Assembly: GCA_027051265.1 (NCBI GenBank)
Contig: JALTZH010000038.1
Span: 1 to 5,779 of the forward strand
Length of the DNA: 5,779 nucleotides
Direction: 5' to 3'
Source: an archaeon
Lineage (GTDB): Archaea; Hydrothermarchaeota; Hydrothermarchaeia; JALTZZ01; JALUTC01
Below the pieces are notes generated by a model. The model was not told the DNA's origin, searched no databases, and worked only from the letters and a program-made list of their open reading frames with translations. The stretch's first letter is position 1, and each line of letters opens with the position of its first letter. Below, in pieces: positions 547 through 5,779 of this stretch. Made by a program: the position numbers and the translations under genes.

Positions 547-3150
547 CTAAAAAACATAAATTTCATATTCCTCATCTTGGGCTTTGAATCTTTCTTTAAT
601 TTTGTCAAATCCATATCTGTAGATCGTATCAATGTCTTCATCATTAATGTTTAAAATGTAGAATCCTTTAAACTCTCTGATGCTATTTCTAATTCTATTG
701 AAATAGAACACTGGCACGTTTATTGAGTATTCATACAACGCTTTTCTTATCTCCCATTTACTTTTTTGAGTACGATTTTCTAATTCTTCCCAAGTCAAGC
801 CGACATTCTCTTGATTTTTAATTAGCTTTGCTATATCTTTTACCCAATCTTCTCCATATTTCTCCATTATTTTTGGAATTACCACCTGAAACCCTGCAAT
901 ATTTCTGAATATCATCTGAGCCTGCCATTTCTTTTCAACTGTGAAATATTTGAGAAAATCAAGATTTTCGACGATTTCTTTGATATAAACATCTACCAAT
1001 CTTCTACCATCAACTTCATAGTCAAAAACTTCATTAATCATGCTCTTTTCACTTTCATAATTCAATACTTCATCTTCATATTTTTTTAGTACATTAACGG
1101 TCTGTTCTAATACCATCTCAGCAGCTTTCCCTTTTTGTGATAATCTACCCCCTACATAAATGGCTTTTGTTCCTATATCTTTGTCAAATTTGGTGAATAT
1201 GTAAATATTTGGCTCGCCTTCGTAATTAACATTCCTTTTTCTATATACGCGCCCCCACCTTTGTATTTGACTATCTATTGGAGATATTTCTGTAAGCATT
1301 CCATCAAAATCAAGATCAACGGAAGCTTCGATAATCTGTGTTGAAACCACTATAATGCCTTTATTTTTATCTGTCGATTCTATTTCTCCAAGTTTTTCTT
1401 TTATTTTTCTTATAGTGTCATCTTTTACTTTCTCAAAAAGACGAGAGTGTAATAAAAATATATCGTCTTTTATTTTACCTTCATTTTTCATATTTTTAAG
1501 AGTTTCATAGATTATTATTGCTTTACTAACATTGTTTATAACTATGAAGATACTTTTCTTTCCATCACTTTTTAATTTTTTCAGATATTTTGTTATAACT
1601 TCCTCATTCACGGAAATTGTGGAATTTTGTTTTTCATTTCTTGTTTTAATGTATTCTACCAGAGGTTCGTCTATCGTCTTAATTTTATGCCTCTTTAATT
1701 CATAATTTCTAATTTCATTTTTCACCTTTTCAGTATCGAACATCTGCTTATGCTCAAGATTTAATCTGAAATCTTCCGGGATATCTTCTCTGGTCTTTTT
1801 ATCTCTAAAAAAGAAAGGTTTGAAATATGGTGGCAATGTTGCGGTAATTATCAATATTTTACCGCCAAGAACCTCAACTATTTTTAGGGTTTTTATTATA
1901 ACTGCTGCCATTTCTGGATTGTAGGCCTGTACTTCGTCAAGAACTATTGCGGACAATGGATAAATGGATATTATCTTATCAGAGCCATAATAGTTAAGAG
2001 ATGTAAGAAATATTTGATCAGGCGTAGCAAGTGTAACAGGATGAGAGAGGAGACTGGCAGATGTCATTTTTTCATCTACACTTGTATCACCAAATTTTTT
2101 AGCCTCCTCCACGTACTCCATGAATGCGGTGGAGTGTAAAAGTCCGAGAAGTTTTACATCTCCAAGATAATCCTCGAATCTGTGGTAGATGTCGTTTAAT
2201 GCAACTCTTAGTGGCAGAGTATATATAAACTTCCTTCCAGTATTTGATGCCCATAAAATAGCGAATTCGGTTTTTCCAGAGCCAGTTGGAGCGATTAAAA
2301 CACCAGATTCTCCGTCAACGTCTTTAAGAACATCTCTCTGCCAGAGAGTTTTAGAGAATCTCGATTCTATTTCTTGCTTCATTTTATCCAATACTTTATC
2401 TGGATTTTCCGAATACTCAACATTAATATCTCCGCTTGCTGAGTAGTCGCATCTTCTTAAGCATCCCAGGAACACCATAAAATCGTAATCAGGATTCTCG
2501 TTATCTATTTCGTAAAATTCAGCAAAATCCAGCAGATCACCATGATTATTTATAATATCCAGAAGCTCATTAACTCTCTCTCCAGAAGTATCTATTTTTC
2601 CAGCTATATCATCAATGTTTGCATTTTTAAAGAGTTCCTCTAAAAATTTTTTGAAAGTGTCCCAATTATCCCTTAGGAATTCCAGATATCTTTTTATATC
2701 ATCCGGATAGTTCTGATATATCTCTCCAAGGTCTTTCTCATCAATGTAAAAATTATTGTAATGATGCAGTAGTACTGCAGTTCTTATCCGACTCGCCCAA
2801 ATATCATTTTCTTTAATAAGTATTGATGCCCAGATAGCCGATAAAATTTCGTGATCTTTTATCCTAAGCCCTTTAATAGGCTTTAAGAATTTTTCTAACA
2901 CCTCCCATTCATTAGAGTTTGTGTCATACACTCTCTTCTGGAAATCATAATTTATTTTTCCAAAATCGTGGACTAATTCAGCTATTTTTAGTGCTTCGAA
3001 AAATTTTTCTTTTTCTTTGATATAAATTCCATTAATCTCAACAAAATTCTTAAGTTGCTCGGCACGTTTAATAACTTCTCTTGTATGAGCTTTTAGACTT
3101 TTATTTTCCCCTTCGGATTTTGCTCTGAGCAGATCTATTACTTCCATCAT
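547..3150 (-). CDS. cas3: Cas3 HD nuclease-helicase
   Basis: The effector nuclease of type I CRISPR-Cas: once Cascade has bound a target, Cas3 unwinds the DNA 3' to 5' with ATP and degrades it. Numbering from the ATG at 3150 (867 residues), the N-terminal HD domain shows His22, the HD pair in LVHDFGK (61-62), His100 in DHEILSAIW, the HH pair in LLHHYNN (129-130) and Asp235 in RRCDYSASGD. The superfamily 2 helicase follows: Walker A APTGSGKT (287-294), DEVQAYNP (405-412) as motif II, TATLP (436-440) as motif III, STQIIEASVDLDFD (603-616) as motif V and QRWGRVYR (630-637) as motif VI, then a C-terminal domain. All catalytic motifs are present, so the protein should be active. Motif II ends in Gln rather than the usual His. 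The frame extends to 3168, but the ATG at 3150 overlaps the cas5 stop as ATGA and is preferred; the adjacent ATG at 3147 is equally possible. HD and helicase are fused, unlike the split Cas3'/Cas3'' of type I-A. Confidence 0.98.
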   Translation of the reverse strand: MMEVIDLLRAKSEGENKSLKAHTREVIKRAEQLKNFVEINGIYIKEKEKFFEALKIAELVHDFGKINYDFQKRVYDTNSNEWEVLEKFLKPIKGLRIKDHEILSAIWASILIKENDIWASRIRTAVLLHHYNNFYIDEKDLGEIYQNYPDDIKRYLEFLRDNWDTFKKFLEELFKNANIDDIAGKIDTSGERVNELLDIINNHGDLLDFAEFYEIDNENPDYDFMVFLGCLRRCDYSASGDINVEYSENPDKVLDKMKQEIESRFSKTLWQRDVLKDVDGESGVLIAPTGSGKTEFAILWASNTGRKFIYTLPLRVALNDIYHRFEDYLGDVKLLGLLHSTAFMEYVEEAKKFGDTSVDEKMTSASLLSHPVTLATPDQIFLTSLNYYGSDKIISIYPLSAIVLDEVQAYNPEMAAVIIKTLKIVEVLGGKILIITATLPPYFKPFFFRDKKTREDIPEDFRLNLEHKQMFDTEKVKNEIRNYELKRHKIKTIDEPLVEYIKTRNEKQNSTISVNEEVITKYLKKLKSDGKKSIFIVINNVSKAIIIYETLKNMKNEGKIKDDIFLLHSRLFEKVKDDTIRKIKEKLGEIESTDKNKGIIVVSTQIIEASVDLDFDGMLTEISPIDSQIQRWGRVYRKRNVNYEGEPNIYIFTKFDKDIGTKAIYVGGRLSQKGKAAEMVLEQTVNVLKKYEDEVLNYESEKSMINEVFDYEVDGRRLVDVYIKEIVENLDFLKYFTVEKKWQAQMIFRNIAGFQVVIPKIMEKYGEDWVKDIAKLIKNQENVGLTWEELENRTQKSKWEIRKALYEYSINVPVFYFNRIRNSIREFKGFYILNINDEDIDTIYRYGFDKIKERFKAQDEEYEIYVF

Positions 3151-4016
3151 AACCACCCAAATTCGCATGGTATTTTGAATTTATTGCCATCAATTTCAAA
3201 TTCTTCATATTTTATTTCTATTTTTCTATCTCCATTTCTAAGTTTAATTATATAATCAAAACCTGTATAAATTACTGGCTGAAAATCAACATGTCTTTCT
3301 GTAGTTTTTGTTATTTCCGCCTTATGTTTTATCAATGTACCATTATTGTAGAATTTTACAGTTACAGGTATGGAATAAACTGGATACTTCTGATTTTTGA
3401 TCGGGAATTCGATTCTTTTACCGTCCCTTACGATATATCTTTTGATGTACATAGGATATCTAAGCCAGATTGATTTTTTGGCTGGTTTGTAGTCTGATTT
3501 ATCTAAAAACTCTACTCTTCTGATAAAAACAACATCTTCACTTCTGCCGAGATAGAGTGTTTTCTTCGGTTTTGATAAAGCATCATTAATATTTTCCAAA
3601 AGTTCTTTATTTCCACGAAGGAAGATGTAAATGCAACCATTAAAGAGTTCTTGTTGATAGACAGGAGTTCTCTGAGCTGTTATATTATAATGATATACTG
3701 GATGCCAGCTATTTCCGAGGGGATTCCTTTTATGTTTGTTCACTAAACCAATCTTACTAATAGAAACTTCTCCTTTTATTAAACTCTGATAGTTCCAAAA
3801 TGTGCTTTCAAATCCTCCATGAATACTAACTTGTAGAGACCACAAATCCTCTTTATAATACTCTCCTACTGCGTTCTGTAACATTCCTATTATTGTTGAT
3901 TTAGGAGGTAATGGATATGTCTGTGCATAATAAAATGTAAATGGATTCCTGTATTGTGCGAATGGCTGGAAAAGTTCAATATAAAGCACCCTATTCAACA
4001 TATTGCAATCACTCAT
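3147..4016 (-). CDS. cas5: Cas5 (Cas5t-like) Cascade subunit
   Basis: Cas5 is the single-copy RAMP subunit that caps the 5' handle of the crRNA and anchors the large subunit in Cascade. At 289 residues it shows the family start: LYIELFQPFAQYRNPFTF (11-28), then the hallmark YPLPPKSTIIGML (34-46) that forms the first RRM-like ferredoxin core and its glycine turn. The second conserved block, YLGRSEDVVFI (155-165), is also typical of Cas5. The sequence looks most like the Cas5t group found with Cst1/Cst2 in Tneap-type I-B systems. The start at 4016 overlaps the end of cas7 by 8 bases; ATG at 4001 (residue 6) would remove the overlap, and neither has a visible ribosome site. The stop overlaps the cas3 start. 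Translation is probably coupled to cas7. In I-C systems Cas5 also processes crRNA, but nothing here indicates that; a Cas6 is expected outside the window. Confidence 0.93.
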   Translation of the reverse strand: MSDCNMLNRVLYIELFQPFAQYRNPFTFYYAQTYPLPPKSTIIGMLQNAVGEYYKEDLWSLQVSIHGGFESTFWNYQSLIKGEVSISKIGLVNKHKRNPLGNSWHPVYHYNITAQRTPVYQQELFNGCIYIFLRGNKELLENINDALSKPKKTLYLGRSEDVVFIRRVEFLDKSDYKPAKKSIWLRYPMYIKRYIVRDGKRIEFPIKNQKYPVYSIPVTVKFYNNGTLIKHKAEITKTTERHVDFQPVIYTGFDYIIKLRNGDRKIEIKYEEFEIDGNKFKIPCEFGWL

Positions 4017-5280
4017 CTTTATGCTTCGGTAACTTTACTGTTACACTTGAATCATGGAATATTTCTACTTTCTTCACTTTCTCATTCTTCCCTGAAGTAT
4101 TAAATAATTCGTTAATTAAACCTAGAACTTCCTGCTCATTCAGCGCCCTTGGATCGCTTAGGTTTTCGTCTTCTATCTCAAAAACTGGCTTTCTACTTTT
4201 AGTAATCCTGTGCCTGACTCTATAGATTTTTTTGCCATCCTTTTCGTATTCCTCTATCTCATCGTATTCTTCACTTACATATTCATCAACAAGGATGATT
4301 TTGTCTTTGAAGGTTTTATAGGGAGTATCTTTATAGATCCCTACAACCATCAGTTTCGGAGATAAGTCCTCGTCACGTCCTTTTATGCTCCTTTTGAGAT
4401 TAAATATTGCTTTTATTAGTTCTTTGACACGCTCTTTAATTTTCTTATCTCTAAGCCGATATTCTATTATCATAGCACCTACATTATCGTTGAATTCTAT
4501 ATATTCCTTCAATTCTTTTGAAAATTTCACTTTATTATCATTTTCCTTAAAAGGTAAGATTAATTTGGAAATGTATATGTTTTTATCTGCATTCTCTTGA
4601 TATTTAAACATTAATGGCTCTTTTTTCCCACTATAGTTAATTTTAAAATCGATATTTCCTTTATCGTCTTTTTTTATTTCTACAGAGTTCATTGTCCGCT
4701 GTTTATTACCTTCCTTTATCGTCTTAGCTAAATATATCTCTATTTTGCCAATCTTTTCAATGTCAACTACAACACTATATTGATAGTATGTTTCATGCTC
4801 TTCTGCAGTAAATGGATTTGGATCCATCCCTCCGGTAGCTTTTCTCATTCTATTCGCTAAACCGATATTCGCATTGAATAGAGCGTCATAAGCAAATGGT
4901 GTTAAGGATACCGCATGACTTATTTTAACAGGAGCTTCTCTAAAGTTTTGTGGTGTTGTCGAAGTGATTAGATAGCCAAAAAGATCAAATTCTGGATATT
5001 TCAGTATTTCACCCGATAGTAAAATTTCCTCTGCAGGTTGTATAACTGTTTGTTCACCCTCTCCAGCCCGTTGTAATTTAGAGCCATCTGCAACATCCCA
5101 CAAACCCACTTTCTTTGCAGTTTCCAATATGCTATATCTGAGGGCATATCTGCTGACGAGAGTGTACTGCTTACCATCCCACTTGGTTATCTTCTTAAGC
5201 TCTTGATAATTTCCACTTCCTTGGTCGTAGTTCAAGGAATTTCCATAGAACACCACATCCATCACAATATACCTTCCCAT
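4009..5280 (-). CDS. cas7: Cas7 (Cst2/DevR family) Cascade backbone subunit
   Basis: Cas7 polymerises along the crRNA spacer to form the Cascade backbone. Family signs, numbered from the ATG at 5280 (423 residues): GNSLNYDQGSGNYQELKKI (14-32) and YTLVSRYALRYSI (39-51) at the N-terminus, as in Cst2/DevR; DLFGYL (99-104) followed by APVKISHAVSLTPF (116-129); and the segment with NPFTAEEHETYYQYSVVVDI (155-174), which in this family lies near the RNA-binding thumb. SPKLMVVGIY (307-316) precedes an acidic stretch, EYVSEEYDEIEEYEKDGKK (333-351). The frame can be read from a GTG at 5289, but the ATG at 5280 has a near-perfect ribosome site and is the real start. It begins one base after the stop of the small gene before it. 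The protein is longer than the roughly 300-340 residues usual for the family, the excess being mostly after residue 190. The family call is firm; subtype I-B is inferred. Confidence 0.93.
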   Translation of the reverse strand: MGRYIVMDVVFYGNSLNYDQGSGNYQELKKITKWDGKQYTLVSRYALRYSILETAKKVGLWDVADGSKLQRAGEGEQTVIQPAEEILLSGEILKYPEFDLFGYLITSTTPQNFREAPVKISHAVSLTPFAYDALFNANIGLANRMRKATGGMDPNPFTAEEHETYYQYSVVVDIEKIGKIEIYLAKTIKEGNKQRTMNSVEIKKDDKGNIDFKINYSGKKEPLMFKYQENADKNIYISKLILPFKENDNKVKFSKELKEYIEFNDNVGAMIIEYRLRDKKIKERVKELIKAIFNLKRSIKGRDEDLSPKLMVVGIYKDTPYKTFKDKIILVDEYVSEEYDEIEEYEKDGKKIYRVRHRITKSRKPVFEIEDENLSDPRALNEQEVLGLINELFNTSGKNEKVKKVEIFHDSSVTVKLPKHKDE

Positions 5281-5281
5281 T

Positions 5282-5614
5282 TCAATCACCTCCAGATTTT
5301 GGTTTTGATGACATTATACCCATTATTATTGTGTATGCCAATTTTTCAAAATTTTCACCTGAAATTTTAGATGTATATAATCTATTAATTTCGCTGCTTA
5401 ATTTTTTCGCATTTTTATCGTCTTTTCTTGAATTTAAAGCTCGTAATATATTCCACAAAAATTTTTCTTGGTCTCCAGATCTTACGATATTCAGAAGATT
5501 GTAAACAAGCTTTTGCTTATAGTTTTCGGATCCAATTTTTTTAAATGCTTCATCAGTTAGTTTTCGTATATTTTCTAAATCATTTCTTGAGATTACAACT
5601 TTATGCTTGCTCAT
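5282..5614 (-). CDS. Small helical protein, probable Cascade small subunit (Cas11/Csa5-like)
   Basis: A 110-residue protein predicted to be almost entirely alpha-helical, basic at the N-terminus, with no signal peptide or membrane segment. The probable role is the small subunit (Cas11; Csa5 in type I-A), present in two or more copies in Cascade, where it lines the backbone and helps hold the displaced DNA strand. The reasons are its size, its helical make-up and its position between a probable cas8 and cas7, where Cse2 and some Csa5 genes lie. Helical amphipathic stretches cover roughly residues 10-27, 33-45, 50-62, 66-80 and 86-102; the last contains NFEKLAYTIIMGIM. There is no motif that proves the family. 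The ATG at 5614 is chosen because GGAGGTGG lies six bases before it; an upstream ATG at 5629 falls before that site and is rejected. The start overlaps the upstream gene by 14 bases. In most I-B systems Cas11 comes from an internal start in cas8, so a separate gene is notable. Confidence 0.65.
   Translation of the reverse strand: MSKHKVVISRNDLENIRKLTDEAFKKIGSENYKQKLVYNLLNIVRSGDQEKFLWNILRALNSRKDDKNAKKLSSEINRLYTSKISGENFEKLAYTIIMGIMSSKPKSGGD
5284..5293 (-). promoter_or_regulatory. Strong Shine-Dalgarno site of cas7, fixes its start
   Basis: GGAGGTGATT (5293-5284) is complementary to the 3' end of archaeal 16S rRNA over about nine bases and lies a few bases before the ATG at 5280. It is embedded in the last codons (Gly-Gly-Asp-stop) of the preceding gene. 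It decides the cas7 start against the upstream GTG at 5289, which lies inside the site. It is the strongest ribosome site in the window, which suits the most abundant Cascade subunit. Confidence 0.85.
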
Positions 5615-5779
5615 TTGTTCCACCTCCATAAGCTAATCCGCAAACAATCGCAAGGGCGTAATTTTCCCAGTTTTTATTGTTACTTATTATTTTTTCAAAA
5701 AGATAATTGTTAAGATATTTCAATTTTCCATTATCTAAATTGCTTTTATTCTCAAGCAGAATCTTGAGAAATATATTAG
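5601..5779 (-). CDS. 3' end of upstream cas gene, probably Cas8 large subunit (cut by right window edge)
   Basis: An open frame enters from the right edge and ends with TAA at 5603-5601, giving the last 58 residues of a protein. The frame is real on three grounds: it runs without a stop to the edge, it shares the AT-rich composition of the operon, and it overlaps the next start by 14 bases in the manner of the other junctions. The segment looks helical and ends in NWENYALAIVCGLAYGGG. In type I operons of this order the gene before the small subunit and cas7 is normally cas8, whose C-terminal domain is a helical bundle; the sequence fits but does not prove it. No family motif is visible in so short a piece. 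It also resembles the C-terminal half of the small protein that follows. The protein could instead be another helical Cas subunit. Confidence 0.6.
   Translation of the reverse strand, partial: NIFLKILLENKSNLDNGKLKYLNNYLFEKIISNNKNWENYALAIVCGLAYGGGTNEQA
5620..5627 (-). promoter_or_regulatory. Strong Shine-Dalgarno site of the small-subunit gene
   Basis: GGAGGTGG (5627-5620) lies six bases before the ATG at 5614 and decides that start against the in-frame ATG at 5629. It lies within the coding sequence of the preceding gene, where it encodes Gly-Gly-Gly, so the two genes are probably translationally coupled. Confidence 0.8.

Follow-up and report, generated by a model that had tools for sequence, protein, structure and literature searches.

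We assign the 110-residue protein encoded at positions 5282..5614 (minus strand) of the DNA analysed here, with a probability of roughly 0.86, to the stand-alone small subunits of type I-B Cascade: it would be a Cas11b, related by ancient paralogy to the C-terminal tail of the large subunit Cas8b, acting as a belly module and replacing an internal translation start in cas8b. Stand-alone Cas11b is already represented in profile libraries as a I-B small subunit, and the kind is thus known. The window, by which we mean the whole stretch analysed, is an entire contig of 5779 bases from an archaeal draft genome.

Genes of the window and the small protein

The window is a minus-strand fragment of a predicted type I-B cas operon, containing the end of cas8b, cas11b, cas7, cas5, cas3 and a partial cas4. 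Assignment to type I-B follows from the joint presence of a Cas8b end and of matches to TIGR02585, TIGR01895 and TIGR01587 (cas8b, cas7, cas5 and cas3). The 3' end of the large-subunit gene cas8b (5601..5777, minus strand) is open at the contig edge. Its last 58 codons, corresponding to the end of a Cas11-like C-terminal module, matched positions 528-574 of 574 in the PADLOC Cas8b profile PDLC01542 (E 2e-10) and positions 556-604 of 605 in the Cas8b profile A3 (E 3.8e-12). A search of the own genome for the remainder of cas8b returned the window fragment alone, indicating that the end of the contig interrupts the gene. The stand-alone gene cas11b overlaps this end by 14 bases, and its product matched the PADLOC Cas11b profile PDLC01541 over positions 2-95 of 98 (E 3e-34), with further PADLOC matches to PDLC01190 (6.6e-6) and PDLC01193 (3.5e-4). 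A reading of the sequence alone, made before this analysis, had proposed a separate small-subunit gene behind a probable cas8; these genes are cas11b and cas8b, respectively.

The cas genes are tightly packed, the ribosome-binding sites of cas11b and cas7 being embedded in the end of the preceding gene. That of cas11b, GGAGGTG (5621..5627, minus strand), lies 6 bases before the ATG at 5614, within the last Gly codons of cas8b, and has a duplex energy of -14.0 kcal/mol. A longer open reading frame of 115 residues has no ribosome site, so that the start previously chosen for the 110-residue version was correct. The earlier decision to discount the Gly-Gly shared by the two protein ends was equally sound, since the cas11b ribosome site translates as Gly-Gly-Gly in Cas8. 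The cas7 site, GGAGGTGAT (5285..5293, minus strand), falls within the last codons of cas11b. Downstream on the same strand are cas7 itself, encoding a backbone subunit of the Cst2/DevR family (4009..5280; NCBIfam TIGR02585, E 2.6e-83), cas5b (3147..4016; NCBIfam TIGR01895, E 5.4e-31), cas3, with HD nuclease and helicase in a single protein (547..3168; TIGR01587, E 3.3e-64; TIGR01596, E 1.1e-19), and the first 88 codons of cas4, cut by the contig end (2..265; Pfam PF01930, E 2.5e-24). Genes cas6, cas1 and cas2 and a CRISPR array would fall outside the contig ends, cas6 lying 5' of cas8b in complete relatives. Inside the window, a search for a CRISPR array found just diverged two-copy repeats, none evenly spaced, and an Rfam search gave no match.

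AlphaFold2 modelled the 110-residue protein from its single sequence as a five-helix bundle (pLDDT 87.5, pTM 0.82), in keeping with the small all-helical bundle expected of a Cas11. The top PDB fold matches of this model included Cas11a of type I-A (7tr6_E, Z 6.8), Csm2 (8bmw_B, Z 6.4), Cmr5 (2zop, Z 5.2) and the C-terminal domain of Cas10 (6ifn_A, Z 6.5), that is, both free small subunits and large-subunit tails; FliS chaperones scored equally high and, for helical bundles, Z below 13 is weak evidence, so these matches are support rather than proof. Sequence searches of the PDB with Cas11b and Cas8b, using single sequences and profiles, returned no relevant chain. A model of the Cas8b tail, built from the relative L003 joined to the window fragment, reached a pLDDT of 39.5, too poor for superposition on Cas11b.

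Relatives were collected by tblastn in public genomes (L003, from a DHVE2 archaeon) and, for the rest, by running PADLOC models on whole archaeal genomes. Complete loci from several families showed the order cas6-cas8b-cas11b-cas7-cas5-cas3, followed by cas4 where the fetched region was long enough. In the window and all relatives cas11b sits between cas8b and cas7, inside the Cascade operon and beside the large subunit, and in every intact locus it is directly behind cas8b. Searches of viral contigs gave no relative of Cas11b or Cas8b, and searches of plasmids gave no match.

Two weak genome matches (L006 and L011) contained several internal stops and were judged to be chance. At L077 cas8b was split into two open reading frames in different frames while cas11b was intact, as a frameshift or an assembly error would produce. 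At L036 (G247) a cas8b remnant with stops lay near an intact cas6, genes of a type III-like module and many short-repeat copies; it may be a decayed I-B locus whose cas6 was kept for the type III system. Finally, a contig end of a genome from the same class as that of the window (L033, G009) carried the first codons of the same type of cas8b, indicating that the system is not restricted to the window's genus.

Kinship of Cas11b and the Cas8b tail

The sequence-only reading had aligned the two proteins of the window by eye. Compared with shuffles, this pair by itself gave a Smith-Waterman p of about 0.03 whether the Gly tails were kept or removed, which is a hint and not a proof; the homology itself proved real when profiles were compared. 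Alignment by hhalign of 19 Cas11b with 18 full Cas8b sequences gave a probability of 96.3 and an E of 1.9e-9, with the match confined to the last ~84 columns of the Cas8b profile. Among the controls, the best of 200 column shuffles reached E 0.0063, a tail-less Cas8b profile 0.036 and reversal 0.086. When both profiles were built without the window, the Cas8b-tail HMM detected the window Cas11b at 2.7e-6 and the Cas11b HMM detected the window Cas8b tail at 4.1e-4, in each case among 1221 open reading frames; all 20 Cas11b frames ranked straight after the Cas8b genes in the search with the tail HMM. Within one order, an independent genome search with the PADLOC Cas11b model, which is curated and was built by others, matched the tail of the neighbouring Cas8b in 12 of the 13 genomes, with E from 2e-6 to 3e-4. 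Across 394 archaeal genomes, the best matches of the Cas11b profile other than cas11b genes were Cas8b tails (2.8e-8 to 8e-6), the next unrelated match standing at 1e-3. Csh1-type Cas8b, in contrast, showed no kinship with either Cas11b or Cas8b of the window type (E at least 0.16), indicating that the Cas11b match is not typical of any helical Cas8 tail. Judged by these profiles, Cas11b and the Cas8b tail are homologous over the whole bundle, and the two segments do not belong to unrelated families. That two short, helical, Lys-rich stretches resemble each other by chance would agree with the p of the window pair by itself; the gap between the true alignment and the best shuffle, together with held-out detection in both directions, refutes this explanation and leaves it next to no probability.

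In a tree of 19 Cas11b and 20 Cas8b tails, which is unrooted, the two modules formed separate clades (support 100/100) joined by a stem of 2.78 + 1.77 changes per column. Lineages branched in broadly the same order in both. Separate clades with a similar order are explained by a single split that predates the archaeal families carrying the system. Tail branches were longer than Cas11b branches in the window (0.99 versus 0.52), L003 (2.16 versus 1.1) and L016 (1.32 versus 0.6), and a roughly twofold difference in several lineages designates Cas11b as the more conserved copy. Cas11b also matched the tail of another Cas8b family, PDLC02050 (3e-8 to 7e-7), better than that of its partner family PDLC01542 (1e-4 to 2e-3).

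The inference of the sequence-only reading, that a duplicated Cas11 module became a stand-alone gene, is largely supported, with "duplicated" taken in the sense of ancient paralogy. An origin of the gene as a copy of the tail of the system's own cas8b does not follow from these comparisons, given an ancient split with no root and the higher scores against PDLC02050; for the same reasons tandem duplication of the cas8b 3' end within the locus is just one of two readings. According to the other, Cas11b is an older small subunit that was always separate and the Cas8b tail is its equally old fused relative, as in Cas10, with no copying event in type I-B. This history, which would leave the working mechanism the same, is a serious contender, and we give it slightly less than an even chance. 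It would account for the long stem between the clades and for the better scores of Cas11b with the PDLC02050 tail and other Cas11b models than with PDLC01542; the fold predicted for Cas11b resembles that of the Cas10 C-terminal domain, and Makarova et al. 2011 (PMC3150331) proposed an ancient connection of the large with the small subunits. Against it, every intact locus has cas11b directly behind cas8b, where tandem copying of the 3' end would put it, and the similarity is still visible in sequence, whereas Csh1-type Cas8b shows none to either module.

Possible translation starts inside cas8b

Since the window's own cas8b is cut before the start of the module, internal starts were sought in 18 relatives with complete cas8b genes. 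For each in-frame start of the tail region, the strength of the preceding ribosome site was taken as the energy of its duplex with the 16S end. As a positive control we used 12 archaeal Csh1-type cas8b genes, a family also found in Haloferax volcanii and Thermotoga maritima, in whose loci cas7 directly follows cas8b with no cas11 between. A strong internal site (at or below -8 kcal/mol) was present in 2/18 cas8b genes accompanied by cas11b versus 8/12 of the Csh1-type genes (p 0.0017, a value that overstates the evidence because the rows are related). The eight positive controls indicate that the scan can see internal starts, which are rare where a cas11b gene exists. This contrast agrees with the earlier proposal that cas8b could do without internal initiation once the small subunit has a gene of its own.

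Close to where the tail module begins, one Met (L003 residue 594) was encoded by ATG in 18/18 complete cas8b genes (L003-L081), with no consistent ribosome site. The mean site energy at this invariant Met was -3.8 kcal/mol, compared with -2.5 for other in-frame ATGs and -11.3 for the starts of cas11b. Of the ribosome site and ATG that the sequence-only reading had suggested looking for inside cas8b, the ATG was thus found throughout the relatives, while the site was near background; an internal ribosome site with a start before the tail module was not a consistent feature of the 18 genes. Against this trend, at one locus (L013) a ribosome-like sequence preceded two in-frame cas8b ATGs.

In the Csh1-type genes (L112-L126) most strong sites were followed by starts 130-147 codons from the end. 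These starts are candidates for internal-start Cas11b in archaea besides Haloferax. Among the genes compared, an intact cas8b of the window type always adjoined cas11b, and a Csh1-type cas8b had no cas11 gene and usually an internal site. This suggests an either/or rule for archaeal type I-B systems, the small subunit being translated from within cas8b or from a cas11b gene of its own.

Probable role in Cascade and comparison with known systems

The belly of a solved I-B Cascade, which holds the displaced strand, is built from the Cas8b tail together with three Cas11b (PMC11096372). By analogy with this arrangement, the first belly module of the window system is most likely its Cas8b tail, and several copies of Cas11b would follow it along the Cas7 backbone and bind the displaced DNA strand. 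The separate gene with its strong ribosome site would supply the free small subunit, and for that reason cas8b of the window type may not have kept, or may never have had, the internal start of the Csh1 type. Our data show directly what the genes are, that the two modules are homologous and separated in one old split, that the gene order is constant and that internal ribosome sites are scarce in cas8b, while belly position, copy number and DNA-strand binding are carried over from solved complexes.

Two other roles were weighed against this one. If cas8b also yielded a free tail fragment from the invariant ATG, each complex would contain two kinds of free small subunit. The conservation of that ATG in 18/18 genes speaks for such a product, as do fair ribosome sites at two related loci (L013, -10.0 kcal/mol; L012, -7.1 kcal/mol) and the production of Cas11b from an internal Met in Haloferax (PMC11899642). 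However, the mean energy at this position is close to background and far from that of cas11b starts, and the Met sits among other invariant residues, where it can be structural. We consider this product quite unlikely, and similarly doubt that a diverged Cas11b and a Cas8b-tail fragment take different belly places in one I-B Cascade. The two small-subunit kinds envisaged by the sequence-only reading are retained here only in the sense that one belly module is the Cas8b tail and the others are Cas11b; a second free product of cas8b finds no support. The small protein could instead be an accessory of the cas operon that works outside Cascade, for example a regulator or chaperone, a role with which the equally good match to helical bundles such as FliS chaperones would be consistent. 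The match to the Cas11b family, the homology to the Cas8b tail and a gene that always lies between those for the large subunit and the backbone all argue for a Cascade subunit and make an accessory role very unlikely.

Most of the I-B, I-C and I-D systems studied use a single sequence both as free small subunit and as tail of the large one, so that neither mutation nor evolution can separate the two roles. The system of the window has two diverged genes, and in several lineages the rate of change of Cas11b is about half that of the Cas8b tail. With such a pair one can ask which residues serve the first belly slot and which the other slots. Haloferax has been described as having no separate cas11b gene (PMC11899642), and a 2026 paper describes types I-B, I-C and I-D as lacking a stand-alone Cas11 (PMC13199841); for type I-B the cas11b of the window qualifies the latter statement. 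In the literature searched, to which subscription journals did not belong, no description of Cas11b and the Cas8b tail as a paralogue pair was found.

Among the closest known systems are the PADLOC entries Cas11b PDLC01541 ("CAS-I-B; effector_SS") and Cas8b PDLC01542, which share family, size and neighbour with the window protein and from which we see no functional difference; the library entry is silent on kinship with the Cas8b tail. Type I-A (Cas11a) and type I-E (Cas11) also pair a separate small-subunit gene with a large subunit whose tail is helical, and the fold search placed Cas11a of 7tr6 near the top, although sequence searches found no similarity of the window protein to any solved chain. 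Type III systems likewise combine a large-subunit tail of small-subunit fold (the Cas10 C-terminal domain) with free small subunits (Csm2 and Cmr5), and tail and free subunits alike match the model, but their large subunit belongs to a different family and their targets are RNA. The internal-start Cas11b of type I-B, known from Haloferax volcanii (PMC11899642), Synechocystis (PMC11096372) and Thermotoga maritima (PMC13199841), has the same expected role and is itself the Cas8b tail module. Its sequence is identical to that tail, whereas the Cas11b of the window is a paralogue that has diverged and has a gene and a ribosome site to itself.
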